Source: Pseudohongiella sp. O18 (lineage in GTDB: Bacteria > Pseudomonadota > Gammaproteobacteria > Pseudomonadales > Pseudohongiellaceae). Taken from it: a DNA stretch of 64,000 bases. The position numbers and the translations under genes were made by a program. Shown here piece by piece: positions 4,212 through 46,712 of this stretch. The stretch covers positions 372,001 to 436,000 of the forward strand of contig NZ_JAJSAR010000001.1 in NCBI RefSeq assembly GCF_021729085.1, given 5' to 3'. The notes below the pieces were generated by a model. The model was not told the DNA's origin. It saw only the letters and a program-made list of their open reading frames with translations, and did not search any database. Positions within the stretch are counted from its first letter, which is position 1; each line of letters begins with the position of its first letter.

Positions 4212-4250
4212 TGCGGCGCCAGGTGATACATTTGAGCCCGCTGCTCTCGC

Positions 4251-4826: not shown

Positions 4827-4873
4827 AACAACTCTCCTTGCTCATTATTATTGGATCAATGTCTGTTCTGGCA

Positions 4874-5506: not shown

Positions 5507-5545
5507 TCGCAGTCCTGCGTTGTTGTTACAGGGTCTTTACTTCAA

Positions 5546-26166: not shown

Positions 26167-28362
26167 TCAGCTGCGCTCACCGCTGGTTAGTGCCTGCAGC
26201 TCCAACAGCGAATATTTCAGGGCCTCGCGGGTTTCTGCAGGCAGGTTCTGCTTGTCCTTGATGGCAGCCAGCACAAAGTATCCAGTGCGGGCGACCTGAC
26301 GCCACCTTGGTCGTTTGGGAAACGATTCTTCGCCAAGATAACGATCCAGCGTACGAGTCCGCAGGCGTCCATTGTCGATGACAATAGCCCACAGCTTGCT
26401 CTCCTGCGCCAGCTCCACTTTGGTTTTAGAGGTGTACATCTCCCAACACTCCACCGCCAGGCGCATGGTTTCAATCAGTCGCGACTTCAGGGAGTGGCTG
26501 GTCGGCGAATCTGAGCCATTGCCGGTCAGTGAGTTTAAGCTCTCAAAAACTTGCTGCAATTCCCGGCGAACCTGTGGCGCTGCGTCGATCAGCAACGGTT
26601 CCAGTGACTGCAGCTGTTTGGAGACAGAACCCAGTCTGTCTCTGGCCTGAGCCATCATGCGGAAGGCCAGAAGCGGATCACCGGATCCTTCTTCATGGCG
26701 AGGGTCATTGAGAACCAGTAAGTAAAATGCATCCTCTACGCCAATCTGGGCTAGCTGGCCTCGGACAACAATCTCGGCATCCCGACCTTGAAGTGCCAGA
26801 TTTTCGATTGTCATCGCAAGTTCGCTGTCATCATCCTGGCCTGACAGGTTGCCTAACACAAATTGCTCCGGATTTGAGGAATCTGCCAGCAACCTGGCGA
26901 ATTCTGTTTCCTGTAAATCTGCCTTGTTCAACCCCAGCAGACTGCAGAACCCATGGGACGCAAAAGTGATGTAGCCCGCTTCATTGAGCGCCACCAGGCT
27001 GAGATCACTGTGCTCGAGTATCTGGTGCAGTCGGTTTTGCGACTGTTTTAGTTGCTGCTCAGCCAATTGGAACTGCTGTATCTCGGACTCAAGGCGTGCT
27101 TTTTCCTGTAGCACCAGCTGTTTTTCGCGCTCCAGCAGCCTGAATCGCCAGGCCAGGGCAAACGAAAACAGTACCGTTTCCGCCATCAACCCCAGGAACA
27201 GGGCGTTATCGGTAAACCAATTGTGCGGAAAGACACCCAGCACTAAGGTGCCGAAACCAACAATAACACCAATTTCACCTATCAAGGTGACCAGCAAATA
27301 AAGTTTGGCCAGCGCGTGTCCTCGCACTACACCATCCACCATGGCGTAAATGATGGCACCTATGGCAAAAAAGCTGAAAATCAGCGAACTGCTCTGAAAC
27401 AGGCCAAAATCTTCCGGAACAACAGCAAGAAGCAGCAATAGCACTGCAATCGCAATCAGTACGCTAAAAACCCTGCCGAGCACTTTGTGATAGGAGTCTA
27501 TGTCCAGAAACGATCGCGTGAACTGCAGGCGGGTCAGACTGAGCAGCGCGACAGAGGCGCCGCTTAGGTGACGCATAACATAGTTGTCATTCAAATCCAG
27601 AAACACCATGTGGCCGTTTATGCCCAGGTAAACCAGCAACACCGCTGCTGCGTAAGCCACATAATAGATGTAATTCCTGTCGCGCACGGTCAGATACAGG
27701 AATAAGTTGTATAGAATCATGATACCAATGGTGCCGTAGAACAGGCCCATGATCAGTATTCCCTGAGCTTCATTACGCTTGAACGCGGTCTCGGACCATA
27801 GTGTCAGTGGCACATGAAAGTTGCGGAACGAGGTCGCACGAATATAGATGGTCGCGTCGGACTCCGGCTGCAGACGCACCACGAAGCCCCCGGGCAGTGT
27901 CCGCACCTCTCTTGGATGGAATTCGGTCTGATTGTTGTGCATGTACATGCTTTCCAGCACGTCACCATCACTGTCGAGAATCCAGACGAACACATCATCG
28001 GTGGGCTTGGGAGGGCCGATCTCCAGCAAGTAGGGTGTAGCCTCGTCAACTAATCCAGCCTCCCAGTCCAGATCGAGCTTGAACCACAAAGCGGTATCGG
28101 TATACCCGAAATCGAGATCTTCTGGAAAGTTACGACTGAAACGTGAGGCTGAGGCGGGACTCGACACCTCCTCAAACGATAGCGAAGCAGAGTCATCTTT
28201 CAGCAATAACACATGCTCAGCCAGTGTGATCGATTCCACTTCCGGCCCAATACTGACCGATTGGGACCAGGCGGTTGAGAATGTTCCTGTAAGAAAAAGG
28301 GCAGTAAGCACTAAAAGAGTGCGGATGTACCATTTTGAGCCTGGTCTTGAGTGGAGTGTCAT
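26167..28362 (-). CDS. 7TMR-DISM sensor protein with PAS-like domain and unassigned C-terminal module
   Basis: The 731-residue protein has a signal segment (residues 12-33), a periplasmic 7TMR-DISMED2 domain (about 45-190, with FGYTDTALWFKLDL), seven helices (about 200-405), a coiled coil (410-445) and a PAS-like domain (about 450-545, with LVALNEAGYITFASHGFCSLLG). Residues 550-731 contain no GGDEF, EAL or kinase motif. Instead the end carries ESKLWAIVIDNGRLRTRTLD and PKRPRWRQVARTGYFVLAAI, a module I recall from other signalling proteins but cannot name. It is divergent from the two-partner secretion operon and may control it; this is inference. Confidence 0.85.
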   Translation of the reverse strand: MTLHSRPGSKWYIRTLLVLTALFLTGTFSTAWSQSVSIGPEVESITLAEHVLLLKDDSASLSFEEVSSPASASRFSRNFPEDLDFGYTDTALWFKLDLDWEAGLVDEATPYLLEIGPPKPTDDVFVWILDSDGDVLESMYMHNNQTEFHPREVRTLPGGFVVRLQPESDATIYIRATSFRNFHVPLTLWSETAFKRNEAQGILIMGLFYGTIGIMILYNLFLYLTVRDRNYIYYVAYAAAVLLVYLGINGHMVFLDLNDNYVMRHLSGASVALLSLTRLQFTRSFLDIDSYHKVLGRVFSVLIAIAVLLLLLAVVPEDFGLFQSSSLIFSFFAIGAIIYAMVDGVVRGHALAKLYLLVTLIGEIGVIVGFGTLVLGVFPHNWFTDNALFLGLMAETVLFSFALAWRFRLLEREKQLVLQEKARLESEIQQFQLAEQQLKQSQNRLHQILEHSDLSLVALNEAGYITFASHGFCSLLGLNKADLQETEFARLLADSSNPEQFVLGNLSGQDDDSELAMTIENLALQGRDAEIVVRGQLAQIGVEDAFYLLVLNDPRHEEGSGDPLLAFRMMAQARDRLGSVSKQLQSLEPLLIDAAPQVRRELQQVFESLNSLTGNGSDSPTSHSLKSRLIETMRLAVECWEMYTSKTKVELAQESKLWAIVIDNGRLRTRTLDRYLGEESFPKRPRWRQVARTGYFVLAAIKDKQNLPAETREALKYSLLELQALTSGERS

Positions 28363-28459
28363 TTTTCTCGTAATAACAAAATCTTGCTGTTTGTTTAACC
28401 CTATTTTGGCCCTATTGTTTCAGCGTGTCGAGCTATCGTTCGAGCCTTTTCCTGTAATA

Positions 28460-28476
28460 CTTGGTAACAAACCAAG
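28460..28476. promoter_or_regulatory. Inverted repeat in the tpsA leader
   Basis: CTTGGT-AACAA-ACCAAG is a perfect 6-base inverted repeat 27 bases before the exoprotein start codon, in the 141-base divergent region shared with the 7TMR gene. It may be an operator or a leader hairpin. I see no strong sigma-70 hexamers. Confidence 0.35.
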
Positions 28477-28503
28477 AAACGCACAATAAAACAGGTAAGC
28501 CAC

Positions 28504-31500
28504 GTGCCTCCCAGCCGATTCAAACGTCTCGAACTGGCCGTCGCCATATGCGCCGCCAGCCTCACCATGCATTCCAGTCGCGCTCAGGATCTGCCACAGG
28601 GCGCAGATGTAACTCACGGCCGGATAGACATCGACGTACAGGGCCAGCACATGCAGGTCCAGCAGGGCAGCCAGTACGGTATTGTTAACTGGGACACCTT
28701 CAGCATCGGCGCTGGCTATCATGTTGACTTCGACAATGGCAGCGGCGCTACACTCAACCGTGTCACTGGCACAGATGTCTCTCACATTTACGGACAACTC
28801 ACGGCCAGCGGCAGCGTCTACCTGCTTAACAGCAATGGCATCGTCATCGGAGAAGGCGGCCAGGTGCTGACCGGCGGGCATTTCATTGGCTCCACGCTCG
28901 ATATCCAGGACAGTGATTTCCTGGATGGCGGTGGCTTCTCGCTGTTTGGCGAGGCCTCAAGCGGGGTCACCAACCTGGGCAAAATCTCCTCCTCTGGCGG
29001 CAATGTCCTGCTGGCAGGCTATACCGTGGAAAACCGCGGCGAGATCAGCGCGCCGCAGGGTCATGCCGGTTTAGCCGCGGGTACCCGGGTAGATGTGCTG
29101 ACCGACACGAGCTGGGCCGGCGGTGCCTTTGCCGTGAAACTCGGCGAGCGCGACAGCTCTGTCAGTAACGAAGGCCGCATCCAGGCCATGGTCGCCGAGC
29201 TGCGCACCCACAATGGCAACATCTACGCGCTGGCAGGCAATAACACCGGCCTTATTCAGGCAACCGGCGTGCGCAGCGAGGGCGGCAAGGTCTTTCTGAC
29301 GGCGGAAGACGGCCTGGTGCAAAGCAGCGGTGTCGTGTCGGCTGTCAAAGCCGATGGCAGCGGCGGGGATATCGAGATATCCGCACAGACTATTGAGAAT
29401 TACGGTGGTGTGCAGGACGTCAGTGGCAGCACCGGTGGTCGCATTGCCCTGACCGCGGACAGCATCATCAGCGATACCACAATGCGCGCAGATGGTACGG
29501 ACGGTGATGGCGGCGTTATCACGCTGGAAGCTGAGGACCAGGCCCTGTTAACTTCCGCCGGCAGCATCAGCGCCCAAGGCTCAGCATCTGGCGGTGAGAT
29601 TGCCGTGGATGGTGGTAGTGGCAAAACCCTCCTGTCCGGCTCGATAAACGTGTCTGGAGGCCTGCAGGGTGGCCGTGTCAGTCTCTGGGGCCAAAGTGTG
29701 TCGATGTTTGGCGGCAGCATCCTGGCAGAGGGTGGCGCACTCGGGGGTGAGGTCTATCTGGGTGGCGGCTGGCAGGGTCGGGACATCTGGCAAGGAAACG
29801 CACTGCTCGAGACAAGCAACTCACAATCCACCTACCTCAGCGAGACCAGTCATATCAGCGTTGATGCCAGACAGCTGGGCAAAGGCGGTACTGTCGCCGC
29901 CTGGTCTGATGGCATAACGCAGTTTGCCGGCAAAATCACCGCCCGCGGCGGCCTGCTGGGCGGCGATGGCGGCATGGTTGAAACATCCGGGCTGGACGGC
30001 CTTGGCGTGTCCGGCGATGTTGATGCCGGCGCACGCGCGCCATACGGCACCAACGGCGCCTGGCTGCTGGACCCCAAAAACATAACGATTTCCGAAACTG
30101 CCGCACCACTGGAGGAGTTCCGCCGGGTGCTTAACGAACCCGGCGCCCGTGCTGCCTCTTACACGACCTGGAATTTTGGGCAGGACGTGGATATCAGTGG
30201 CAATACTTTTATCGTCTCGACCAGAGAGAGCACGGCGCAGGGCAGGTCAGCCGGCGGTGTGTATGTATTTGAGGACGGCAGGTTCTCAGCCTTGTTGACC
30301 AGTGGACTGTCCAGCACTGTGGATTTCGGTAAGACCATCGCCATAGCCGGGGATTTTATTGCAGCGTCTGCGCCCGGTGACCGCCAAACAATTGAAGGTA
30401 CCATCTCTCAGTATCGGGGCTCGATCTCGTTCTTTCACCGGGGAGATGGCTGGAAAAACGGCACCCAAAGCCTGCTTAGCAAGCAGTACAACCCCTATTC
30501 CAAGCAGACTAATGATTTTTCGACTGATGATTGGGGCGCTGCACTGGTCGGTGCCGAGCGCTCCGGCAACACCTACTTTTATATCAGCAATCCATTGGCA
30601 GATCTGAATTCAATCAATGGCGAGGACGCTGGCACAGTGCTGGTCTACAGCTGTTCCTCCCCCACATTCTGTGGATCCGCCGGGGAGCTCACGGCTGAAA
30701 CCAAGGTCGCCGATCAGCGCTACGGTACAAGCCTGGCTGCAGATGGCGATGTCGTTGCGATAGGCAGCACTAAATCGTACCACCCTACACTTGCCACTAA
30801 TCAGCTGGATGTATTCGTTGGCTTCAACCGGCTTAATCTGACTATCGAGGGTTTCGGCAGTATCGGCGGGTTTGACGTTGATGACAGAACCCTGGTGGTA
30901 AATTCCGGGGACTCATTCCGTCAATTTGATTTGTCTCTTGGCGATAGTGGGACACAGGCCCAACAAAGCGCAGCGTGGACTATAGCCAAACCCGTCAATC
31001 TATGGGTAGCAAATCGGATTGCGGTCTCTGGCGACACCCTGCTGGTGGAGAACGGCTCCACAAGCAGCAGTACAAGACATGCGATTTATCAACGGCCGTC
31101 TGCAGGTTGGAATAGCTGCCCGGAGTCCGACTGCGCATACAGCCTTAACATCACACTCAGTGGTGAGAGGGCGAATTCGTTCGCTCTGGACGGAGACCTC
31201 GCTATTATCGGACAACAAGACTGGGCCTCCGGAGCCGGCCGAATCAACATATTTACTCGCCACAATGGCACCTGGGGGTATGGCGAAACGCTGGGCGCTA
31301 CCCAGCTTGACTATACAACAGAATTTGGTGACGCCGTTGCCATCGACGGCGATACCTGGGTCGTTGGCGACTCATCGGTGGCCTTCAATGCCACAAATGA
31401 AGGCGCCGCCTACATATTCGAGAATGGCAGCCTGGCCGCCAGGCTGGGTCGTCGTTATCCACGCTTCATTAGCGGTAGCTCTTATGGTTTCGGATTGGAC

Positions 31501-34500
31501 GTCGGCATCGATGGCTCGACAGTGGCAGTCATCAGTCCGGGCGACGCCTACATTTTTGAAAAAGGCGCTGGCTGGAAGAACGGCACAACCAATCTGACCG
31601 GCTATAAATTCTTCGGCAGCAACACAGTCAACAGTCTGTCGCTGGACAATAACCTCCTTGCTGTTGGTTTCACCCATCAGAGCAAAACCACGCCGGGGCA
31701 GGTGAAACTGTTCCAGAACAGTGGTACGGGATGGCAGAGCGCCCTCGATAACGCTCTTGCCAGCCTGATGCCCAGCACCTCCCAGAACAGCGATGGTTTT
31801 GGCATCGACGTCGCGCTGGACGGCAATACACTGCTGGTCGGACAGGCTTCGACTGACAACAGCATCACGCAGCGTGCATTTATATTCGAAAACACCTCCA
31901 ATGACTGGTCCACTGCGGTAGAGACCATTCTGAACCGTGGTCTCGGTGCCAACAATGACCTCTCGTCTGGTCTGTTTGGTGGTTCCGTCGCGCTGGACGG
32001 CAATCTCGCAGTGGTAGGTTTTGGTACACAATTCGGCAATGTGCAGCAATCCAGTACAACGGGCGCCTATGTATTCGAAAAACAAGGCAGCTGGGCCGCG
32101 TCAAGCCAGCCGGCAGCGCGTCTGCAGGTAAATCATACTGGATTTGGTGCTGCAGTGGCCGTAGACAACGGTCTGATCGGGGTCAGCGCCTTTCCGGGCA
32201 ACAATAGTGTCGGAGGCGCAGTTTACCTGTTCAAGAAACAGGGCGGCTGGCAGGACGGCAGCAATAATCTGATCGCGTCACTGGCTGCTGCCAGCAGCGG
32301 TGGCAGCGACAGATCCAGCATCGGGTACAGCCTGGCAATTTCTGGTGACAAGGTCGTATCTGGCGGCACGCCCGCAACCGCGCCTGGCTCGAATCCCTGG
32401 CGGGCCGGTTTCCTGTATCAGGGCCCATTTGACGTCGAAAGCCGATTTGCTTTCGGCAACCAGCCAGGTGACACACTCAGCCTGAAGGCCAGCTCGCTCG
32501 CTGGTGCGCTGTCCCTGGGCACCGATATCACCTTGCAGGCCAACAACGACATCAACGTCATTGATGCAATCACCGTGAACAACCCTGATGGCAACGGCGG
32601 CAAGCTGACCCTGGAGGCTGGGCGTTCGATTCTGGTGAATGCGTCGATCACCACGGACAGCGGGGACCTGCACCTGTTGGCTGGCTCTCCCAATGCCAAT
32701 GCTACTTATCGTGACAGCGGCGAAGCGCGCGTGTTGGTCGGCACCGATTCAAATAACAATTCTGCCACGCTCAATCTGGGCTCCGGCAATTTGCTGATCA
32801 ACGCGCCGGATCGCTTCGAGAACCGCGCACTGACCAACAACATCTTCCGATTTGATGCAACCAATCCCGGCGTCTTCCGCGTATTCTCAAAGACACCAGA
32901 CAACACAGGCGCCATCTCGCCCAGTAATTTGCGAAAGAACCTGGATATTACCGGCCGCGACTTTGTGCACTACAACAAGACGTTCGATTATTCCAACCCG
33001 ATTCCTGACGATCTCCCTACCGGTAGCGGATTCTTCTATACAATTCGTCCGTCGATACGGGTCTCCGTAGGAGACTCTACAGCAACATTCGGTGATGAAG
33101 CCGTTGCCACACTTCAACTGGACTCGGCAACGCTGGATGGCAACGACATTGATGCTGACGCTTTCGGTATCACGGCATCCGGGATACTGACTGTCGTCAA
33201 GACAGCCCCGGCCGATCATGTCAGCAAAACAGCGGGCGGCTTTGCCGAGGTTGGCAGCTATACGGACGGCCTGATCGCGACCTTACGCCAGAATGTTACG
33301 ACCGGCAGCCTGTTCGGGGTTGACGTCACGGCAGGTGAAGCCGGCGATCTGACGGTCACCAAGAAATCGATTCGCGCTATCGTCGACAATGTGACGCGCG
33401 AGTACGGCACCGCAAATCCTCAGTTCACATTTACCTTCAAAAACCTGCAGGATGACGGCGCAGGCCTGGTGGCAGGCGATACCGTGTCAGTATTTGACAC
33501 GCCGCTGACAGTGACAACTGACGCGGCTCTGGATACGGATGTGCGCCCCCAGCCCTTTGACCTGGTTGCAGGTGGCGGCGCAGACAACAACTACGATGTG
33601 ACGCTGGTCGACGGCCTGCTGACCATTGTGCAACAACAATTACAGGTTACCGGCCTGAGCGCACAGGACCGGGTGTACGACGCGACTGCAAGTGCGACTC
33701 TCAGTGGCGCTGCCACGATTGCGCCGCTGGCCGGGGATGACATCTCGCTGGGTGGCACACTTACAGCGACTGCCAGTTTTGCCAGCAAGCACGTCGGCAA
33801 CGACAAGCCCGTCACCATCAGCGGACTGCAACTGAACGGCGCTGATGCGCCCAACTATGCTCTGGTACTCCCGAACCTGACTGCCAGCATTACGGCGCTG
33901 GCCCTGAATCCTACGGGCCTCAGCGCCGCCGACCGTGTGTACGACAACACCACCCAGGTCAGTCTCAGCGGCACCCCCTCAATTGCGCCGATTCAGGGCG
34001 ACGACGTCAGCCTGGCAGGAACCGTCAGCGGCAGTTTCTCTGACAGGAACGCGGGTATCAACAAACCGGTCCGGCTCACCGGCCTGACGCTTGACGGCGC
34101 CGACGCAGGCAACTACACATTAAACCTCTCTGATGCCCTGTTTGCCTCTATCAGTCCCCGCGAACTGCAGGTGACCGGGCTGACCGCGCAGGACAAGGTT
34201 TACGATGAGACACTCAGAGCCACAACGACGGGCACTGCCACCGTCACTGCACTGGGCGAGGACCAGGTGCAAGTGGGCGGCACAGCTCTTTTCCAGTTTT
34301 CGGATCGCCACGTCGGCACCAACAAAGTTGTTACCGCCAGCGGCTTTACGCTGCACGGCGCACATGCGGGCAATTACACCTTGCTGCAACCGACCGGGCT
34401 GACAGCCAGCATCACCCCAAGGGACGTGGTGGTCACTGGCCTCAGCGTTGTCGACCGAATTTATGATGGCACTGCCGCGGCCAGGCTAGTTGGCAATGCC

Positions 34501-37500
34501 GGTATCAGCACTTTTGGTCAGGACGATGTTACGCTGCAGGGTGACGGCACGGCCCTATTCGCGGACAAACACGTTGGTAGCAATAAAGCTGTTACTGTTA
34601 ATGGCTTTAGCCTGACCGGTGCTCACGCAGGCAACTACAACCTGCTGCAACCCAGCGGGCTGAGTGCCAGCATTCTGGCAAGACCTCTGAGCGTAAGTGG
34701 CATCACAATAAGCAATCGCGCCTATGACGGAACCATCAACGTCAGTTTCACCGGTGATGCGGCAGTCAGCGGCGCGCTTGACGGTGATGATCTCAGCATC
34801 GACAGCAGTGGTTTCACGCTAAACTTTCTTGACAAGAATGTCGGTACAGATAAAAAAGTACGCATTGGCGGCGTAGCACTCAGTGGCGCAGATGCCGCAA
34901 ATTATGATGCAACCGATGCCGGATTGGTCGCATCAATCACTCCGCGTCTGCTCGACCTGCTCGACGTTAATGTTGCCGACAAAATTTACGACAGGACAAC
35001 CAGTGCTACCGTTACAGGTGGTCGCATTACTGGCATCCTGACTGGTGACAGCCTCAGCCTGCTGGTGTCTGAGAGATTTGGCATCTTTTCGGACAAGAAT
35101 GTTGGCCAGAACAAGACCGTAACAATCGCTGGCTTCTCCCTGACCGGCAGCAGTGCAGGAAATTACGCGCTTAATCCACTGACTCTGAATGCCAGCATCA
35201 CGCCTCATACTCTTAACATCACTGGTCTCAATGGCGATAAGACATACGATGGCCAGGCATCTACCACCTTACGTCACAACGGTCTGGACAGCGCTTTTGT
35301 TGGAGACGACGTCAGCCTGGATGGATCAGCAGTCAGCGCTGCCTTCGCTGATAAACACGCCGGAGCGAACAAAAACCTTAGCTTGACTGGCAGTTTCACC
35401 CTGCAGGGCAATGATGCCAGCAACTATTTACTGAATCAGCCAGGCGCCCTGACTGGCACCATCAGTAAACGCAACATTACAGTTGACGGTCTGACTATCG
35501 CGGACAAAGTGTATGACGGCACAACCACAGCAGAAATTTCCGGTACTGGGACGTTTGGCGGTGCGATAGCTGGGGACGACCTGGCAATCAATGTCGGTGA
35601 GGTCGATGTACAGTTCGCTGACAAGAATGCAGGAAACAACAAGCCAGTTGCCATGTCGGGTGTCACACTCAGCGGCGCCGACGCTGAAAACTATTCAGCC
35701 GCTACTCCGACCGGTCTTACTGCATCTATCACACCGAAGGCGCTGACAGTATCCGGGATTGGCGCCAGCGACAAAGTGTACGATCTGACCACATCAGCGA
35801 CCTTGACTGGCACTGGCGTGATTGCCGGCCGTATCGATGGCGACCTGGTCACACTTGATGAAAGCGCCCGTTCGGGCAGTTTTGCCGACCGTCATGTCGG
35901 GGAGGACAAAGTCGTCACTGTCTCTGGCCTGGCACTCGCTGGCAATGATCGCAACAACTACGTAATTTCGCCGGTCAGCGACGTAACCGCTTCCATCACA
36001 CCTGCTACTGTATCGCTTACAGGTCTCACGGCGATAAACCGTGTGTATGACGCAACCACGCTGGTGAATCTGGACGGTGTTAGCACGCTTGATTTTGGCA
36101 CACTTGGCACCCTAAAAAGCATCAAAGACGATCTCTCCCTGCTCGGAACACCAGTCGCCAACATGAACGACAAACATGTAGGTGACAACAAAGCATTGAC
36201 CGTCAGCGGTGTCACCCTGGGCGGACAGGACGCTGGCAACTACACACTGAACCTGCCGACTACGCTTAGCGCAAATATCACGCCTCTGGAGCTTACCGTT
36301 GTCGGCCTGACGGCGGTGGACCGGGAGTACAATGGCGACAATATTGCTGATCTGTCCGGCACCCCCAGTGCCGCCTTTAAAACAGGAGATGCTGTGAGCA
36401 TCAGCGGATCGCCGCTCGCCACGTTTGATTCCAAAGACGTCGGCGCACGCACAGTGAACGTCACAGGCTTTGAGCTGGATGGAGATGACGCCAGCAACTA
36501 CCGGCTGAAACAGCCTGAGCCATTGAACGCCTCGATTTCACCCTACCAACTCGTCCTGCAGGGCGTTGTCGCCGACGACAAAATCTACGATGGCACCACA
36601 GTGGCGCCTCTTAGCGGCAGCCTGTCTGTCAGTCCCTTGGGTGGGGATTCTGTTACTGTCAGTGGACAGCCTGTTGCGACGTTCGCCAGCAAGAATGTTG
36701 GTGACTCCATTGCTGTCACGCTAAGCGGCCTGGGTCTGTCCGGCGGCGGCAGCAATAATTACATCTTTACTATTCCAGAGTTGCAGGCGTCCATCACACC
36801 GCGGACACTGACAGTTAGTGGCATTACCGCCATGGATAAAGTCTATGACGGCACGACTGCTGCTTCCTTCAGTGGCACTGCAACACTACCCGATGTGGTT
36901 TCCGGCGACGCCGTGGATTTTGACGCGTCTATTCTTAGCGGCAGTTTCCGTGACAAGAATGTCGGTGACGGCAAACTGGTGACCGTGGAAGGCGGCGGAC
37001 TCAGCGGAACAGATGCCGGCAACTACCTGCTGCAACTGCCAGGAAGCCTCACTGCATCAATTACACCAAAGCCTTTGAGTATCACAGGAATAAGCGCAGC
37101 AGACAGGGTCTATGATGGCACAACAACCGTATCGGTATCAGGTGGCAATCTTGAAGGCATGATTGACGGTGATGCAGTGCAACTTTCAGCTGCCGGTGCC
37201 ACAGGCACGCTGTCCGACCCTGATGCGGGTGACAACAAACCGGTCACAGTGGCGGGCTTCTCAGTCACTGGCGCAGATTTTACAAACTACTCTTTAGCAG
37301 AACCCGAAGGGGTTACTGTCAATATTCTCCAGCGTCTGTTGGAGATAAGCGGCGTCCAGGTAGCTGACAAATTCTTTGACGGCAATACCTCAGCAACCGT
37401 CAGCGGCGGAAACCTGCAGGGCGTGATCAGCGGCGATGATGTTGGCCTGGTCGGTGCCAATATCAGTGGTGAGTTTGCCGACCCTGAGGTTGGCGACAAC

Positions 37501-40470
37501 AAACCCGTTATTCTGTCAGGCTTTGATCTGACGGGCAGCGATGCAGGAAACTATTCACTGGGTGACGCACCAAGCACCACCGGCAACATTAAGCGTGAGC
37601 TACAGCTGATCACCGATGTCGTACCACCGGAAGTCTTGCGTGCCCAGGCCGACACGAATCTGGAAGCACAACGGGAAACGCTGACCGCAATGGTCAACGC
37701 ACAGGCGGACGCGGTAACTGTGGTCGAATATGAAGCGGCGACCGCCAGCGTATTTCAGCGCGTGGCAGCTGCACCTGTCAACAATTCGATTCTGGCAACA
37801 CCACCCGAGCAACAGGACACTTTCACTCAGACCTATGTGGCGGCAGCGCAGACATTGCAACAACGTCAGCAGGAGTACGCGGCCCTGGAAACCGGCTATC
37901 GCAGCGAAGCTCGATACCTGAAGTCACTGACACAGACATTCAATCAGGTGCAACGGGATCTTCAAGTGGCGTCTGCATTGATTCCCGCGATTGAATCCTC
38001 CATCGCCGGAGCCACCGCTGCGCTGGCTGATCTTGATACGAATCTGGCCGAAATTCAGGAAGCACGCGAGCGACTGGCGGAATACACACAACTGGAACAG
38101 GAAGCTCTGGCCACAGGTCGCGGCGCGGAGGCTGCGCAGTACCGCGAGATGCAAGCCGGTTTACAGGAACTGATCGATCAGGAAGACGAATTGCTGCAGC
38201 AACGCGCAGAAACAGAACAGCTGATTGCAGAGCAGCAGCAGGAAATCGAGAGCACGCGCCAGAGCATCGCTGAGCTGGAAGAGCAAAGCCAGGTGCTAAG
38301 CGCCGAAATGAGTGACACCGAAATCGAAGTGCAACTGGCCGCAGAGCGCGCCAGCGCGTTGCGAGAAGGAATCGCTGAGGCCAGCGAGGAAATGGAGACC
38401 GCACGCGCGGAAGGTGCGGCAGCTTACGAACAGCGGGCCAGCAACCTTGCCCAGGCCCGCCAGGAAGCCGAGGCCAAGGTAAATAATCTGCAAGCGGTCG
38501 TTTCATCAGACCTGGCGCAGCGCACTGCCGCCAGCCTGGTGGATACCGACCCAGCGGTTGTTGCAACGCTGGCGGGACGTGAGCAGGCCACCGCCGCGAA
38601 AAATGCGGTAGGCCAGACAATTTCGCAGACCCTGGGTGCCGGAGCACTCAATTACGCGGAACAACTGGCACAGCAGGCGACCTCTGGTCAGGGCCTGGGC
38701 GTCAACCCGCAGCAACTGCGAGACGGCCTGGTCAACAGCGTACCTGAACTCAACCAGCTGCAGACCCAGTACCAGTCAGCCATGACTGCCCAGCAGTCCG
38801 CAATGACAAGCATTGAGGACATATTCTTTGCTGGCCCCCGAAATGCGGCGCGCACTCTGTTGGGCGTCACTGGTGCCCAGGCTGACAATCTGCCAATGGT
38901 TGCTGCTGCGCGCGAGCGGATGAATAGTCGCATTGCACAACTTGCAGGTGTTGACCTCAGCACCATTCCAGCCGTGGACGCCAGTGGCAACCCATTGCCC
39001 ATGGTGGAGCGTATTGCGCTGGGGATGCTGGCCCGCCAGGGTGCCACCGACCTGGCGGCAGCCGCCAACCCCGGCACGCTGGGTTCGGCGGCCAGTGGTT
39101 ACCAGGCACGCATTGATGCGGCGGTCGGACGTGAATTTGGCATCACACCCACTCAGGCCTTGAATGACCCCAATGCTGCCTTGAATGCAGCAGCAGATCT
39201 GGTACCAACCGATCGGGACAGTGCCATTGATGTGGCCGAGCAAATGTTAGTGGCCCGCGTCCGGCTTGATGGCGCCCTTCAGGACGCCGCCATGCAGGAA
39301 GCAGCCGCCCAGGATCCAACGGGCACGCTGGCCGAAGTCAACAATATCGAAGCCGCCGCTGAGCAGGCGTTTGCCGATACCTATGGTCAGACACCCGAAG
39401 AAATGCTCATCAGTTATATCAATGGTCAGGCAGATGCCGCACGTGCTGCCGACACGCCCGAGGAAATGCTGGAGCTCTACCTGCAGAACAACATGCCTCA
39501 GGCAGCGCTGGCAAGAGACGTTATCGAAGGCATGCGCAATGGCGCGCCACCCGATCAGTTGCTGGCAATGGTGGCCAGTTCCTCAACGGGCGGCCGCAAC
39601 AATCCACTTTCCATCAACAACACGGGCGATGCAGCGAATGCCGGTCGCACTGGGCTGGCCATGCAGGACGCGGCAATCACGCAGGCCGAGGTCGCTGATC
39701 GCACAGGTACGCTGAGAGCGGTTAACGATGTGCGCGGCGCGGTTGATGCCGAGTTCGCCGCCGTGTTTGGCGGTAGCCCGGAAGAGTTGGCTCTCAATGC
39801 GCTGGAAGATCCGGAAGCTGCGGCCGGCCAATTGCTTGAACTGGGTGAAGATCTGTTCTCTAACCCGGAAGGTGCCACACTGGAGGCTGTCAATATCGTC
39901 GGCAGCGGTGCTGTCAGTGCGGCCAGCAGCGCGCTGAACACAGCACGCAATCAGCTGGAAGTCCTGGCGGGTCCGCTCGGTGGCGTCGGCGAGGCCATGA
40001 CCACCATTGCTGACTGGGGCGGAGACATTGTCGGCGGCGCCATCGACTTTGCCGGTGACCTGTTCGGCTTTGGCGGTGGTGGTCCGTCCGATGCAGAAAT
40101 CGCCGCGGCCCAGGCTTTTGTAGCACAGCAGGCTCGTGTGGCTGAACTGGAGCAGCAACAGGCTGAAGATCAGGCGATTATGGCCTACCTCGAGCAGGCC
40201 CGTGCAGTCGCTGAATCCAAATACCGTCTGGCGGTCGGCGTTGAAAAAGCCAAAGACCAGGTGAGCCAGTATGTGCTGAACGCCAAGGTAGAGTCACGCC
40301 GCGAGCAGGAATACCAGGTCACCCGCCAGGCCAGCACCGAGGTGATCCGTGAGTATGTCCAGAACAACCTGGAACAGGAGGCCGGTGCTGCCCAGCGCCA
40401 GCTGCAGGCCGTATCCGGCACGCCGGAAGAACTCGCCGCACGCGCAAACGCCTGGAGGGCAGGATCATGA
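28504..40470 (+). CDS. Giant two-partner secretion exoprotein (TpsA) with beta-propeller-like, MBG and YDG repeats
   Basis: The 3,988-residue protein starts with GTG behind AGGTAA. Residues 1-28 are a signal peptide. The TPS secretion domain follows, with GIVNWDTFSIGAG and NSNGI (residues 109-113), a variant of the NPNGI motif. A right-handed beta-helix runs to the WLLDPKNITI motif near 520. Residues 557-1309 hold 14 FG-GAP-like blades. An MBG domain occupies about 1620-1712, 15 YDG-type repeats 1713-3032, and a Glu/Gln-rich coiled coil 3113-3333. The C-terminus has three related TPEE-type repeats and another helical region. It should be exported by the Sec system and then by the downstream TpsB. 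A surface adhesin or ligand-binding filament is the likely role; no toxin domain is visible. The last codons overlap tpsB by four bases. Confidence 0.93.
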   Translation: MPPSRFKRLELAVAICAASLTMHSSRAQDLPQGADVTHGRIDIDVQGQHMQVQQGSQYGIVNWDTFSIGAGYHVDFDNGSGATLNRVTGTDVSHIYGQLTASGSVYLLNSNGIVIGEGGQVLTGGHFIGSTLDIQDSDFLDGGGFSLFGEASSGVTNLGKISSSGGNVLLAGYTVENRGEISAPQGHAGLAAGTRVDVLTDTSWAGGAFAVKLGERDSSVSNEGRIQAMVAELRTHNGNIYALAGNNTGLIQATGVRSEGGKVFLTAEDGLVQSSGVVSAVKADGSGGDIEISAQTIENYGGVQDVSGSTGGRIALTADSIISDTTMRADGTDGDGGVITLEAEDQALLTSAGSISAQGSASGGEIAVDGGSGKTLLSGSINVSGGLQGGRVSLWGQSVSMFGGSILAEGGALGGEVYLGGGWQGRDIWQGNALLETSNSQSTYLSETSHISVDARQLGKGGTVAAWSDGITQFAGKITARGGLLGGDGGMVETSGLDGLGVSGDVDAGARAPYGTNGAWLLDPKNITISETAAPLEEFRRVLNEPGARAASYTTWNFGQDVDISGNTFIVSTRESTAQGRSAGGVYVFEDGRFSALLTSGLSSTVDFGKTIAIAGDFIAASAPGDRQTIEGTISQYRGSISFFHRGDGWKNGTQSLLSKQYNPYSKQTNDFSTDDWGAALVGAERSGNTYFYISNPLADLNSINGEDAGTVLVYSCSSPTFCGSAGELTAETKVADQRYGTSLAADGDVVAIGSTKSYHPTLATNQLDVFVGFNRLNLTIEGFGSIGGFDVDDRTLVVNSGDSFRQFDLSLGDSGTQAQQSAAWTIAKPVNLWVANRIAVSGDTLLVENGSTSSSTRHAIYQRPSAGWNSCPESDCAYSLNITLSGERANSFALDGDLAIIGQQDWASGAGRINIFTRHNGTWGYGETLGATQLDYTTEFGDAVAIDGDTWVVGDSSVAFNATNEGAAYIFENGSLAARLGRRYPRFISGSSYGFGLDVGIDGSTVAVISPGDAYIFEKGAGWKNGTTNLTGYKFFGSNTVNSLSLDNNLLAVGFTHQSKTTPGQVKLFQNSGTGWQSALDNALASLMPSTSQNSDGFGIDVALDGNTLLVGQASTDNSITQRAFIFENTSNDWSTAVETILNRGLGANNDLSSGLFGGSVALDGNLAVVGFGTQFGNVQQSSTTGAYVFEKQGSWAASSQPAARLQVNHTGFGAAVAVDNGLIGVSAFPGNNSVGGAVYLFKKQGGWQDGSNNLIASLAAASSGGSDRSSIGYSLAISGDKVVSGGTPATAPGSNPWRAGFLYQGPFDVESRFAFGNQPGDTLSLKASSLAGALSLGTDITLQANNDINVIDAITVNNPDGNGGKLTLEAGRSILVNASITTDSGDLHLLAGSPNANATYRDSGEARVLVGTDSNNNSATLNLGSGNLLINAPDRFENRALTNNIFRFDATNPGVFRVFSKTPDNTGAISPSNLRKNLDITGRDFVHYNKTFDYSNPIPDDLPTGSGFFYTIRPSIRVSVGDSTATFGDEAVATLQLDSATLDGNDIDADAFGITASGILTVVKTAPADHVSKTAGGFAEVGSYTDGLIATLRQNVTTGSLFGVDVTAGEAGDLTVTKKSIRAIVDNVTREYGTANPQFTFTFKNLQDDGAGLVAGDTVSVFDTPLTVTTDAALDTDVRPQPFDLVAGGGADNNYDVTLVDGLLTIVQQQLQVTGLSAQDRVYDATASATLSGAATIAPLAGDDISLGGTLTATASFASKHVGNDKPVTISGLQLNGADAPNYALVLPNLTASITALALNPTGLSAADRVYDNTTQVSLSGTPSIAPIQGDDVSLAGTVSGSFSDRNAGINKPVRLTGLTLDGADAGNYTLNLSDALFASISPRELQVTGLTAQDKVYDETLRATTTGTATVTALGEDQVQVGGTALFQFSDRHVGTNKVVTASGFTLHGAHAGNYTLLQPTGLTASITPRDVVVTGLSVVDRIYDGTAAARLVGNAGISTFGQDDVTLQGDGTALFADKHVGSNKAVTVNGFSLTGAHAGNYNLLQPSGLSASILARPLSVSGITISNRAYDGTINVSFTGDAAVSGALDGDDLSIDSSGFTLNFLDKNVGTDKKVRIGGVALSGADAANYDATDAGLVASITPRLLDLLDVNVADKIYDRTTSATVTGGRITGILTGDSLSLLVSERFGIFSDKNVGQNKTVTIAGFSLTGSSAGNYALNPLTLNASITPHTLNITGLNGDKTYDGQASTTLRHNGLDSAFVGDDVSLDGSAVSAAFADKHAGANKNLSLTGSFTLQGNDASNYLLNQPGALTGTISKRNITVDGLTIADKVYDGTTTAEISGTGTFGGAIAGDDLAINVGEVDVQFADKNAGNNKPVAMSGVTLSGADAENYSAATPTGLTASITPKALTVSGIGASDKVYDLTTSATLTGTGVIAGRIDGDLVTLDESARSGSFADRHVGEDKVVTVSGLALAGNDRNNYVISPVSDVTASITPATVSLTGLTAINRVYDATTLVNLDGVSTLDFGTLGTLKSIKDDLSLLGTPVANMNDKHVGDNKALTVSGVTLGGQDAGNYTLNLPTTLSANITPLELTVVGLTAVDREYNGDNIADLSGTPSAAFKTGDAVSISGSPLATFDSKDVGARTVNVTGFELDGDDASNYRLKQPEPLNASISPYQLVLQGVVADDKIYDGTTVAPLSGSLSVSPLGGDSVTVSGQPVATFASKNVGDSIAVTLSGLGLSGGGSNNYIFTIPELQASITPRTLTVSGITAMDKVYDGTTAASFSGTATLPDVVSGDAVDFDASILSGSFRDKNVGDGKLVTVEGGGLSGTDAGNYLLQLPGSLTASITPKPLSITGISAADRVYDGTTTVSVSGGNLEGMIDGDAVQLSAAGATGTLSDPDAGDNKPVTVAGFSVTGADFTNYSLAEPEGVTVNILQRLLEISGVQVADKFFDGNTSATVSGGNLQGVISGDDVGLVGANISGEFADPEVGDNKPVILSGFDLTGSDAGNYSLGDAPSTTGNIKRELQLITDVVPPEVLRAQADTNLEAQRETLTAMVNAQADAVTVVEYEAATASVFQRVAAAPVNNSILATPPEQQDTFTQTYVAAAQTLQQRQQEYAALETGYRSEARYLKSLTQTFNQVQRDLQVASALIPAIESSIAGATAALADLDTNLAEIQEARERLAEYTQLEQEALATGRGAEAAQYREMQAGLQELIDQEDELLQQRAETEQLIAEQQQEIESTRQSIAELEEQSQVLSAEMSDTEIEVQLAAERASALREGIAEASEEMETARAEGAAAYEQRASNLAQARQEAEAKVNNLQAVVSSDLAQRTAASLVDTDPAVVATLAGREQATAAKNAVGQTISQTLGAGALNYAEQLAQQATSGQGLGVNPQQLRDGLVNSVPELNQLQTQYQSAMTAQQSAMTSIEDIFFAGPRNAARTLLGVTGAQADNLPMVAAARERMNSRIAQLAGVDLSTIPAVDASGNPLPMVERIALGMLARQGATDLAAAANPGTLGSAASGYQARIDAAVGREFGITPTQALNDPNAALNAAADLVPTDRDSAIDVAEQMLVARVRLDGALQDAAMQEAAAQDPTGTLAEVNNIEAAAEQAFADTYGQTPEEMLISYINGQADAARAADTPEEMLELYLQNNMPQAALARDVIEGMRNGAPPDQLLAMVASSSTGGRNNPLSINNTGDAANAGRTGLAMQDAAITQAEVADRTGTLRAVNDVRGAVDAEFAAVFGGSPEELALNALEDPEAAAGQLLELGEDLFSNPEGATLEAVNIVGSGAVSAASSALNTARNQLEVLAGPLGGVGEAMTTIADWGGDIVGGAIDFAGDLFGFGGGGPSDAEIAAAQAFVAQQARVAELEQQQAEDQAIMAYLEQARAVAESKYRLAVGVEKAKDQVSQYVLNAKVESRREQEYQVTRQASTEVIREYVQNNLEQEAGAAQRQLQAVSGTPEELAARANAWRAGS
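30172..32430 (+). repeat. Fourteen FG-GAP-like blade repeats within the TpsA gene
   Basis: Each unit of about 54 residues has a core such as FGxxVAIDGDTWVVG, a loop, and a closing strand like GAAYIFENG. I count 14 units, which equals two seven-bladed propellers. The units are diverged at DNA level. Confidence 0.7.
33640..37599 (+). repeat. Fifteen YDG-type repeats within the TpsA gene
   Basis: Units average 264 bases (88 residues) and follow the pattern LxVxGLxAxDKVYDGTTxA, then a GDDVxL stretch, FADKHVGxNKxVT, and ADAGNYxLxxPxxLTASITP. They are degenerate in DNA, so they are protein repeats and not a recent tandem expansion. Confidence 0.9.
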
Positions 40471-42287
40471 ACAACACTAAACCATGGTCTATCTGCTTAA
40501 GCCTGGGCCTGCTGGCAGCTTTGCCGGCCACGGCCCAGCAGTCAGAGTCCGGCGTTCAGGTGATTGGTCCACAATCCACGGTGGAACGTTATGATGCGCC
40601 GGTACTCCCGATCGGGTCCGCAGAAGGCATGATCGACTTTCCATCGTTGATCAGTGCGCCTGGCGCCGATGATGGCATTGAAATCATGCCCAGCTTTGAC
40701 GCCGTCACGATAGAGATACTGGGCACCGGGCAGAGTCGCCAGGAGGGCGAATTTGTCGACATTCTGGGTCAGAGTCGCGCTGACGACACTAACCGCGATG
40801 CCTTGTATGGGGCGCTTCGTGAAACCCTGTCCGTGCATCAGGGACTGCCACTGACGCTGGGCGATGTGCGCTTCATTCAGCAGGACATTACTGATGCCTA
40901 TCGTAGCAACGGTTACCCATTGCTGTCTGTCATCGTTCCTCCGCAGGAGATCGCCAATAATCATCTGCGTGTGCAGGTCAACGAGTTCCGGCTGGCAGAG
41001 GTGCGGCTCAGCTATGGTCGTGGTGATGGCAACTATAGCGACGGCGACCCTCGCTGGAGTGATCCTGAAAAAATTCAGGCGCGCTTCGAGCCCGTTCTTG
41101 AGGCGCCTATCCTCAACCAGCAATCGCTGGACGATGCCGTCGAACAGCTTAACCGCAGCCCGTTCCGCAGTGCCCGAGTGGTGTTTGAGCCAGGCACGGA
41201 ACTGGGTCAGAGTATTGCCAATGTGCAGATTGACGAACAGCGCCCCTGGAGTATTCAGGGCGGCTATAACAATCATGCCACGGAAAGCTCCGGCACTAAC
41301 CGATACTCCCTCAGCGCCACCCTGGGCAACATCCTCGGGGAAAACAACCAACTCTCGCTAAACGCCACCTTCGGCGACAGTATTGAGGAGTTCAGTAATT
41401 ATTCAGCAGTGTTCACCGTTCCGAACCGCTGGGGACATACATTTACATTAAATACCAACTATTCTGATACGGCATCCAGCACCATTCCCGGCATCGATTC
41501 AGCCAGCACATCCCTTCAAATGACTGCCGACTACCGTGTACCTTTGCGACGCGGTGACAGCTGGGAATTGTCTGGCAACGCGGCCTTTTCCTTAAAACAA
41601 TTTGAACGCGCCAGCCTGTTTGGTGGCACTGAAGTGGGTGGCGCCGAGTATGACGGCGCACAACTGTCCGCTGGGCTGACGCTGAACCTGCAGCGAGAAT
41701 TCAGCTCCAACCAGATCTCGGCGACTGTGTTTAACAGTCTCGCCGGTATAACCGACCTGAACAACGCGGAAAACTATCGCCGCTTCTACAACAGCGCCGA
41801 TGGTGATCCTGAAAGCACGCATATCAGCCTGAGTATTGCCCACATGCAGCAACTCGGCGTGCTTGGTGATCGTTGGAGCAACTGGCGTACCGAGACTCAG
41901 ATCTCCGCACAATATGCCATCACCCAGCTGGCAGGCAGTGATAATTTTGCACTGGGAGGGCCCGGCATCCTGCGCGCCTATCAATCCAGTGAAGGCGCCG
42001 GAGACCGTGGTGCGTTCATCAACCAGACGCTGCATTTCCCACCGTTGAGCCGCCCAGTCCTGTATGGTCTGATCCAGAACGTGCAGTGGTCCGCTTTCGT
42101 AGAATCAGGCACGGCGGAATTCGAGAACGGCGGCAGCATCACACTATGGGATGCAGGGCTGGGAATGTCCCTGCAGTTTCGTGGCAACACGCGCTGCAAC
42201 TTCACGCTTGCGGTTGCCGGCGAGGATTCAGGGCAGACGCAATCGGGAGATAGTCGGTTTTTCGCGGGGTGTAATTTCTCTTATTGA
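40467..42287 (+). CDS. ShlB/FhaC/HecB family two-partner secretion transporter (TpsB)
   Basis: The 606-residue outer-membrane protein has a signal peptide (MNNTKPWSICLSLGLLAALP, cleaved near ATAQ), two POTRA domains (about residues 75-240, with SNGYPLLSVIVPPQ and QSLDDAVEQLNRSPF) and a C-terminal 16-strand barrel of the Omp85 superfamily ending in FFAGCNFSY with a terminal aromatic residue. The segment GGPGILRAYQSSEGAGDRG resembles the conserved loop 6 VRGY/F region. Its ATG overlaps the exoprotein stop (ATGA), so it is the dedicated exporter of that protein. Confidence 0.94.
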   Translation: MNNTKPWSICLSLGLLAALPATAQQSESGVQVIGPQSTVERYDAPVLPIGSAEGMIDFPSLISAPGADDGIEIMPSFDAVTIEILGTGQSRQEGEFVDILGQSRADDTNRDALYGALRETLSVHQGLPLTLGDVRFIQQDITDAYRSNGYPLLSVIVPPQEIANNHLRVQVNEFRLAEVRLSYGRGDGNYSDGDPRWSDPEKIQARFEPVLEAPILNQQSLDDAVEQLNRSPFRSARVVFEPGTELGQSIANVQIDEQRPWSIQGGYNNHATESSGTNRYSLSATLGNILGENNQLSLNATFGDSIEEFSNYSAVFTVPNRWGHTFTLNTNYSDTASSTIPGIDSASTSLQMTADYRVPLRRGDSWELSGNAAFSLKQFERASLFGGTEVGGAEYDGAQLSAGLTLNLQREFSSNQISATVFNSLAGITDLNNAENYRRFYNSADGDPESTHISLSIAHMQQLGVLGDRWSNWRTETQISAQYAITQLAGSDNFALGGPGILRAYQSSEGAGDRGAFINQTLHFPPLSRPVLYGLIQNVQWSAFVESGTAEFENGGSITLWDAGLGMSLQFRGNTRCNFTLAVAGEDSGQTQSGDSRFFAGCNFSY

Positions 42288-42305
42288 CGCACAAGAATTG
42301 AATTC

Positions 42306-42331
42306 TAAACTTATCCACAGGGTGCCGATAA
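42306..42331 (+). promoter_or_regulatory. FliA (sigma-28)-like promoter of the chemoreceptor gene
   Basis: TAAA at 42306-42309 and a perfect GCCGATAA at 42324-42331 are separated by 14 bases; the usual spacing is 15. The element lies 54 bases upstream of the MCP start codon. Confidence 0.6.
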
Positions 42332-42384
42332 CCAGATAGTAACATCTACAAAATCTCTATCGTCGGTAAAAAAGGCTTACCCTC

Positions 42385-44112
42385 ATGTCCGTTAAACAGA
42401 AACTCATCGGCATGGCTGCCCTCGCAGTTCTGCTACTTTTGATTGTTGGAGGCTTCGGTTTCACGGGCATTGCACAATTAAACCAATCGACCAGTCATTT
42501 ACAGCTTCAGTCCAACATTCTTGGCAACCACCTGACCGCAGACATGATGCACGATGCGCTTAGTTCTGACGTGCTCGCCGCGGTGGTGGCGAGCAGCAGT
42601 GGTGATCGCGAGGCAATTGAGACAGCGCGCGCTGATCAGCGCGAGCACGCCCAGACCTTCCGCGACATGCTGGCGGCCAATGAGTCGCTTATCACGGACC
42701 CGGAAACAGCCACCGCTCTACAGACTGTGTTGCCTGTATTAACCGACTACATCAACTCGGCCGACCGTATCGTTTCGCTCGCTGAATCCAATCTGTCTCG
42801 GGCGCTAAGTTCGTCTCCAGCCTTGACTGCCAGTGTTCTGACGGTCGATGAACCTCAGGAACAAAACAATGCCGCAGCAACCGTTGTCGAGCCTGTGACA
42901 GAAGCCCGGCCAACGCAGGCCCTCGCCGAGCTGGACGACTTTCGGGCAGCATATGCCCGTCTGGCGGATGAGATGGAGAGCCTGACCAGACTCATCGAGC
43001 AAAATGCGGCATCCGTAGAGGCTGAAGCCGATGAGACAGCTATAGCATCGAACATGTTGATGAGCCTTGGTCTGGGTGTTGGTGTGCTATTGATGGTTGC
43101 ACTCGCCTGGCTGATCAGTCGCAGCATTGTTGGACCATTAAACGAGTTGCTCGCCAACGCTGAAATAGCCGCCACCGGGAATCTGGGTACATCTCTTACG
43201 ATTAATGGCAGTCAGGAAATCGCCAACTCAGCCAGAGCTCTGGAAACGATGCGCTTAAATCTGTCTACCATGGTAGCTGCCATTGGAGACTCGGCCAAAC
43301 AACTGTCGTCTGCTTCAGATGACATGACGTCAACCACCTCCAAGAGCCGAGGCAGTGTTGATCAACAGCAGGCGGCGATCTCCCAGGTTGCCGCTGCCAT
43401 GCACGAAATGACCGCCACATCGCAGGAAGTTGCCGACAATATCAAACGCATTGCGGATGCCGCCGTTGCTGCTAACCAGGAAAGCACCGCTGGTACTGAG
43501 GTGGTCCGCGGCACAATCAGTGACGTGCGCGATCTGGCGGCACAAATAGAACAGTCTGCCGCTGTCATCAATCAACTCAATGAGGACAGCGAAGACATCT
43601 CCGGAGTACTCAGCACCATTACCGGTATTGCCGAACAAACCAACCTGCTGGCACTAAACGCCGCCATTGAAGCGGCTCGTGCAGGAGAACAAGGCCGTGG
43701 CTTCGCTGTGGTCGCCGACGAAGTTCGCACGCTTGCCAGCCGCACACAGCAGTCCATCGGACAGATTCAGGCGACCATCGAGAAGCTGCAGGGCGGCTCC
43801 CAGTCAGCGGTCAAGGCAATGGAGAGCAGCCGCAATAAATCCGGCAAAGTGATGGAGCAGGCGCGCCGTGCGGGGGCCTCGCTGGAGGCGATCGTGCGCG
43901 GGGTATCTGAAATAAAAGACATGAGCGTGCAGATCGCCGACGCGGCTGCGCAGCAGAGCACGGTGTCTGAAGATATCAGCAGATCTCTGGAGCAGATAGA
44001 CGGGCAGTCACACATCACCACCGAAGGCCTGGGGCGCACCAGCCAGAGCGCGGTTGCCGTGGCGGATATTGCCTCTGAACTGACAAAGGCGGTCTCAAAA
44101 TTCCGGTTGTAG
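42385..44112 (+). CDS. Methyl-accepting chemotaxis protein
   Basis: The 575-residue chemoreceptor has a first helix (residues 7-31), a periplasmic sensing region of about 190 residues that is mostly helical, a second helix (about 224-248, [18 protein letters not shown]), a HAMP domain and a cytoplasmic signalling domain whose tip reads [20 protein letters not shown] with [14 protein letters not shown] next. It signals to CheA/CheW and is adapted by methylation. The periplasmic domain contains a low-complexity Ala/Val/Glu stretch near residues 150-175. The ligand is unknown. Confidence 0.95.
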
Positions 44113-44155
44113 GCCTGTGGCTTGTCGACGTCGGCGGGAGAGCGCAGAGAGTCAA

Positions 44156-45346: not shown

Positions 45347-45409
45347 GAATCAGATCGCTATAACATCGTGACTGGGTATACGAGTAATAGCGGCAGATAG
45401 CCGGCAAAG

Positions 45410-45454
45410 TTGATCACTCCTTTCCTGATTGATCACACGGACAGGCGTGTCCGT
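45410..45454. promoter_or_regulatory. Direct repeats and hairpin upstream of the porin gene
   Basis: TTGATCAC occurs at 45410-45417 and again at 45429-45436, a 19-base period, each with the palindrome TGATCA. Next to it ACGGACA-GGCG-TGTCCGT (45437-45454) is a 7-base perfect hairpin. There is no T-run, so an operator is more likely than a terminator. Confidence 0.4.
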
Positions 45455-45488
45455 CGGGTCACATCGCGATCACTGGAGCCCTGGAGTG

Positions 45489-46457: not shown

Positions 46458-46712
46458 GGTTAACTCCTTGGCAGGATTTCGAAATTTTTCAGGAGGCAAC
46501 CCGTACCAGCATTAACAATCGCAAGGTAGGTGTTATCGCGCCGTTAATGCAAATGTTGCTTTAGATACAAAAACAACGCAAGTCAAATTGGCGTGAATCC
46601 GGATCAGATCAGACCAAACCACTTAAAGGTTCGAGTCGTAGGCCACTATGGAGCTTATTGTTGCGCGTGATGCGTGACATCGACTTTCATCGAAGTTTAC
46701 AGGAGAAAGACT

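Follow-up and report, generated by a model that had tools for sequence, protein, structure and literature searches.

Exoproteins of the two-partner secretion (type Vb) pathway, such as EtpA and the HxuA/FHA-type TpsA proteins, combine a TPS domain and a beta-helix with a TpsB partner, and all three are also present at the tpsA locus described here, which lies in a 64,000-nucleotide stretch of the genome of Pseudohongiella sp. O18 (contig NZ_JAJSAR010000001.1, positions 372,001 to 436,000; the whole stretch is hereafter called the window, and coordinates are counted from its first letter). For these proteins, loops and extra-helical elements are mentioned in the accessible part of one account, in which FG-GAP has 0 occurrences (PMC5422565), and the propellers of the HxuA system belong to host haemopexin and not to HxuA, according to the available text of PMC4873976. 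CdrA of Pseudomonas aeruginosa is likewise a TPS adhesin with a predicted beta-helix, encoded in a two-gene operon, but it has a size of 220 kDa, and the available part of its description contains 0 occurrences of YDG and mentions no propeller (PMC2847200). BapP of Pseudoalteromonas tunicata bears a predicted propeller, carried on a chain of Ig-like repeats, but this propeller is N-terminal and five-bladed, and a TPS beta-helix is lacking according to its authors (PMC12153261, accessible part). Bap1 and RbmC, two matrix proteins of Vibrio, also contain FG-GAP repeats; the FG-GAP repeats in the available text of PMC7841849 are theirs, and CdrA is mentioned there as well. Overall, no account of a TpsA carrying an FG-GAP propeller was found in the accessible open-access literature when TPS, TpsA, or filamentous hemagglutinin was combined with FG-GAP, propeller, MBG, YDG, 7TMR-DISM, or helix, nor in the available parts of PMC5422565, PMC2847200, PMC12153261, PMC3796261, PMC3482391, PMC7841849, PMC4257694, PMC4873976, and PMC4104836. 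Stand-alone FG-GAP_2 proteins (L079-L083) share the blade family of the tpsA product, with TSP3 repeats in four of the five, but differ from it in that a TPS match occurred in none of the five scanned. Archaeal surface-layer proteins reportedly contain both beta-propeller and beta-helix domains, going by the title of Jing et al. 2002; both folds thus occur in one protein, and nothing in the title marks it as a TPS protein.

The tpsA gene (28504..40470, plus strand, as are all its features below) was delimited with Pfam and orthologues and encodes 3,988 amino acids from a GTG start whose position is shared by all four orthologues (that of the window and three others). A Sec signal peptide at approximately residues 1-27 (28504..28584), read by eye, is kept in the four orthologues and is followed by the TPS secretion domain at residues 27-279 (28582..29340), which scored 98.8 bits in Pfam against a cut-off of 33.5 (E 6.4e-28). 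This domain matched EtpA and heme/hemopexin-binding protein in the PDB, EtpA being the best PDB match (residues 12-295, 1.5e-47). The usual NPNG motif is replaced by NSNG at residue 109 in all four orthologues, which we take as a variant that would not bar TpsA membership, because whole-domain TPS scores exceed the cut-offs. No other TPS match occurs in the window's genome. Downstream follow a first beta-helix stretch similar to other TpsA proteins (residues 281-519; 29344..30060), the joint WLLDP, identified by TpsA comparison as the insertion point (residues 520-524; 30061..30075), about 14 FG-GAP_2 blades recognized by Pfam and a blade profile (residues 554-1311; 30163..32436), the resumed beta-helix (residues 1313-1440; 32440..32823), and an MBG_2 domain (residues 1627-1707; 33382..33624; Pfam, 3e-10). 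The YDG region (residues 1711-3035; 33634..37608) comprises exactly 15 repeats according to both Pfam (15 stretches, 843.9 bits, 6.7e-261) and spacing, with a period of 86 to 94 residues, and one slice of it gave a single PDB match with an E value of 0.9. The C-terminal module (residues 3036-3988; 37609..40467) was modeled by AlphaFold as nearly all helical (mean pLDDT 48.8), with long helices reaching a pLDDT of ∼70 or more at approximately residues 3116-3275 alone. The tpsB transporter gene (40467..42287, plus strand; 606 aa, Pfam ShlB and POTRA_2) overlaps tpsA by four bases, and a tpsB orthologue also follows tpsA in the other three carriers. The first-pass annotation, made from the letters of this DNA, had called a 3,988-residue TpsA exoprotein with a TPS start, an MBG domain, 15 YDG repeats, a helical C-terminus, and an overlapping tpsB gene directly behind it, and each of these calls held, with Pfam recovering both the FG-GAP_2 and the YDG repeats.

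In the whole tpsA product, FG-GAP_2 scored 63.2 bits against a Pfam cut-off of 23 (2.5e-17, three stretches), and it also exceeded the cut-off, with 27.9 to 41.4 bits, in four of eight slices spanning residues 520-1623. A profile built from eight blades of stand-alone FG-GAP proteins and tested against 200 shuffles found 12 stretches in residues 531-1312, all of which scored above the 95th percentile of the best-per-shuffle scores (0.3 bits) and eight above the shuffle maximum (5.4 bits); as internal controls, the first 782 residues of the YDG region reached −4.0 bits at best and helix 1 reached −1.1. Two further blades near residues 677 and 786 were placed by spacing and reading alone, so that the 14 propeller-like repeats reported earlier are reached with 12 found by the profile and two by such reading. 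Two seven-bladed propellers are perhaps the simplest split of these 14 blades. With hand-set blade bounds, blade 1 pairs with blade 8 and blade 2 with blade 9 as reciprocal best matches, consistent with a doubled seven-bladed propeller, and the remaining five i/i+7 pairs are not best matches; the mean pair score, under the same bounds, was 29.3 at offset 7, with the top value (31.3) at offset 11. Exactly seven FG-GAP_2 matches were counted in 16 of the 75 genomes with FG-GAP_2 (per genome and not per protein, with no more than 18 candidates scored in each). AlphaFold gave a mean pLDDT of 38.1 for residues 400-1440, and neither the propeller profile nor a stand-alone FG-GAP protein had a match in the PDB; the fold of the head, its ligand, and its function are what we infer from sequence. 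DxDxDG calcium loops are typical of integrin-type FG-GAP propellers. A motif search of the whole protein found no DxDxDG, which counts against an integrin-like calcium site but does not count against FG-GAP_2 membership. The mature product has only four cysteines, arranged as two close pairs in the first seven blades, C717/C723 in blade 3 (30652..30672) and C872/C877 in blade 6 (31117..31134), and both pairs are kept in all four orthologues; judging by their spacing alone, they would form two small disulphide loops in the first half of the head. The blades are proposed as a putative ligand-binding head.

The place of the blades was examined by a joint survey of 75 TpsA ORFs, namely, 72 loci chosen by eye among the TPS matches listed (frames of 1,500 amino acids or more), L085, L086, and the window. 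The joint motif was counted in 51 of them, and the 24 without it include L130, L163, and L166-L168, whose false-looking motif was removed by hand. In TpsA proteins from elsewhere in the family and order, W-LLDP leads straight into the next helix rung, and a profile of the post-joint rung (matches counted at E ≤ 1e-3) placed that rung 5 to 21 residues past the joint in 42 of the 51 joint-bearing ORFs; these short distances are partly built in for uninserted ORFs, because the profile was made from such ORFs, leaving out the propeller ORFs, L114, L169, L127, L132, L134, and L146. The rung lies 801 residues past the joint in the window (at approximately residue 1320, 43.7 bits), 804 to 807 in the three orthologues, and 443 in L086, while in L085 it was placed ∼1,790 residues past the joint by a narrower search, the full-length search giving no match. 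The full-length search had no match in seven of the 51 ORFs in total, three of them with inserts (L085, L169, and L114) and four (L129, L132, L134, and L146) judged by eye to have a short gap and to be uninserted. Among six further pieces outside the 75 (L172-L177), two have the joint, both uninserted with the rung at 10 and 12, and four are without it. The post-insert segment of the window is 45% identical to that of L086 and 38% to that of L085. Because a helix rung resumes after the blades, the blades evidently lie inside the beta-helix and interrupt it at the joint WLLDP-520. The first-pass annotation had set them between the beta-helix and the YDG stalk, as a possible ligand-binding head in mid-filament, and both points need revision: the blades fall within the helix, and they occupy 14 to 33% of the sequence from the N-terminus, which is a sequence position and not a place along the fibre.

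Large inserts at the joint were found in five of the 51 joint-bearing survey ORFs, three consisting of FG-GAP_2 blades, one of a DUF5650 array, and one of an unrelated piece of ∼190 residues. In the class sample of 369 genomes, FG-GAP_2 was detected in 75, TPS in 122, and both in 29, and the two occur in one ORF in at least four of these 29 genomes (at least 4/369), represented by the window, G546 (L085), G730 (L086), and several ORFs of G416. The arrangement is therefore rare but not unique; the earlier view that it is not a standard architecture stands as to its rarity, and three full-length orthologues have the same order. The TPS domain of L085 was missed by Pfam and detected by other searches. 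L086, from another family of the same class, resembles the window in having a TPS domain, a beta-helix, a joint (FDP), six recognized FG-GAP_2 blades, a resuming rung, five YDG repeats, and an MBG_2 domain, but its MBG_2 match comes after the YDG repeats, and a caspase C-terminus replaces the helical module (Peptidase_C14, 1.8e-24; L086 spans 1313-7768, plus strand). Its six recognized blades, rather than seven, weigh against a seven-bladed propeller. In L169 (2-4351, minus strand), a long DUF5650 array lies directly past LLLDP and is perhaps another propeller-like head. In L114 (1-4350, plus strand), the insert of ∼190 residues at the WLLDP joint contains four cysteines, and both Pfam families found in this piece match best outside the insert. 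The 1.7-Mb genome G416 has 13 TPS and 83 FG-GAP_2 matches among the matches listed. Its TpsA ORFs L087, L088, and L089 carry FG-GAP_2 arrays and a joint-like motif, and their rung match is weak in L087 and L089 (14.8 and 17.6 bits) and missing in L088, so that the place of their blades relative to the joint is at best weakly supported. TPS-bearing frames of 29,206 and 18,106 amino acids were also seen among the matches listed (G462:C1:290030 and G515:C1:301724).

A quick tree of the TPS domain plus helix 1 (66 rows) required five changes of the insert label, with long-branch warnings for rows including L087, L089, and L086. A TPS-only tree of 48 rows was obtained by removing 18 of the 66 rows: 15 lacked a clear motif, among them L087 and L088, which had also been marked for removal, and L089, L143, and L151 were taken out by hand; it holds seven insert rows, L114 being excluded. 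This tree required four insert-label changes, at least three of them forced by well-supported branches, and a single-change history occurred in 0 of 200 bootstrap trees. Repeated insertion at the joint is likely, not proven, because gains and losses are not separable on the trees. Different cargo at one joint is a stronger argument for repeated insertion than the trees, and the joint seems to be a plug-in site that has been used more than once.

Among 56 relatives, 16 gave a TPS match, a count that includes the window's genome. The search for proteins with the same domain order was productive, yielding three full-length orthologues of ∼4,000 amino acids each, namely, L020 (G008, 91% identity), L019 (G007, 78%), and L021 (G025, another genus, 74%), all of which keep the order. 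L022 (3,911 aa) was rejected as an orthologue, with a match spanning 77 residues. The C-terminal module occurs in four of 137 family genomes, those of the window and the three orthologues. In the order (390 genomes), matches to the propeller profile turned up in 10; they span its whole length solely in the window's genome and G007, the two carriers seen there, and those in the remaining eight are short and weak, five of the ORFs behind them being FG-GAP_2 proteins without a TPS match.

A 7TMR-DISM receptor gene (26167..28362, minus strand; 7TMR-DISMED2 and 7TMR-DISM, with a weak PAS match) is transcribed divergently from tpsA, and the 141-bp intergenic region between them (28363..28503) contains a GCCC/TATT-rich stretch that is partly conserved in the alignment of the four. 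Pfam found no HisKA, HATPase, or receiver domain in this receptor; all three are present in a paralogue of the same genome (L170). Residues 398 and 415 of the receptor align to 424 and 878 of the paralogue, so that ∼440 residues that include the kinase-receiver core are missing. Any match to the receptor was found in 69 of the 137 family genomes, and an orthologue (71 to 88% identity over nearly the whole length) occurs in exactly the same four genomes as tpsA; the next-best match by score had 34% identity, with short C-terminal stretches of up to 51%. This co-occurrence and the divergent placement suggest that the receptor gene and tpsA may form a unit.

We regard it as reasonably probable that the tpsA product forms a fibre exported by two-partner secretion and bears a plug-in head on its beta-helix shaft, with a role in attachment or matrix building. 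The chain would be exported by Sec and is predicted to be passed across the outer membrane by TpsB, after which the beta-helix would fold outside the cell and the blades would close into propellers projecting sideways from the shaft. Because a closed propeller begins and ends at nearly the same place, such a head could be spliced into a loop while the helix stays unbroken. The head, perhaps stiffened by the two small disulphide loops, may bind a glycan or a protein; the YDG repeats would supply length, the helical C-terminus would hold or anchor the fibre, and the kinase-less receptor may tune the same locus. A broader proposal, which we offer as possible rather than probable, is that the LLDP joint serves TpsA beta-helices in general as a plug-in site, at which whole binding heads that differ in fold (FG-GAP_2 propellers, DUF5650 arrays, or a domain of ∼190 residues) would have been inserted repeatedly with shaft and secretion undisturbed, the head being paired here with a dedicated kinase-less 7TM receptor in a three-gene sense-and-attach unit.

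The protein might instead be a released matrix protein resembling CdrA, its head binding the cell's own exopolysaccharide and its fibre cross-linking cells under c-di-GMP control. According to the accessible part of PMC2847200, CdrA binds Psl and is a TPS adhesin regulated by c-di-GMP, and a GAF-GGDEF gene (45489-46499) lies downstream of tpsB in the window, with an 80% identical one beside tpsB in G008 and a 44-residue piece (54%) just after tpsB in G007. However, this nearness is weak, because a GAF-GGDEF search matches 5 to 44 places per genome in 15 genomes of the genus, mostly through the GGDEF part. Moreover, MCP and OprB genes separate tpsB from the GAF-GGDEF gene in the window (42385-46499), and the examined flank in G025 has no GAF-GGDEF match. 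We therefore consider a CdrA-like matrix protein unlikely.

Less likely still, and in our judgment quite improbable, is that the blades serve only as a spacer or stiffener and bind no ligand. In favour of such a role, identity to the most distant orthologue is lower for the insert (67%) than for the TPS domain (85%) or the post-insert helix (85%; YDG region, 69%; last 588 residues, 77%), but the insert aligns end to end among the orthologues with 3 to 12 gap columns, and none of the four has lost either cysteine pair. The YDG array, whose repeats have a within-protein likeness of ∼42% (median), is old and frozen, since in 179 of 180 cases a repeat finds its best match in another species at its own position. 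A recent repeat expansion was rejected on this conserved position and on Tandem Repeats Finder, which returned one 40-bp row in 28000-43000.

Large TpsA proteins also include CdiA, the contact-dependent effectors marked by a VENN boundary motif, a variable C-terminus, and an immunity gene. A CdiA-like effector with a toxic C-terminus was nevertheless rejected as highly improbable: the tpsA product lacks VENN, its C-terminus is 79 to 87% conserved and not polymorphic, Pfam gave no toxin family above cut-off, and no immunity gene stands between tpsA and tpsB, because tpsB overlaps the tpsA stop codon. That the propellers are an enzyme, for instance a glycan-cleaving one, is just as hard to credit: propeller folds can be enzymes, but no enzyme family exceeded the Pfam cut-off.

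The tpsA of the window is thus a real, conserved, and rare TpsA variant. What appears to be new, at the level of sequence, is where exactly the insert sits and the reuse of the joint for different cargo; an adhesive role, a ligand, and the link to the receptor are put forward as hypotheses. A propeller is a closed fold, and the joint would offer a test of how such a fold passes through the TpsB pore. If the joint accepts whole folded domains, this would explain why heads so unlike one another can be displayed through a single secretion route, would show where many giant TpsA proteins that lack annotation probably carry their binding part, and would provide a defined place for probing the cargo limits of type Vb secretion.
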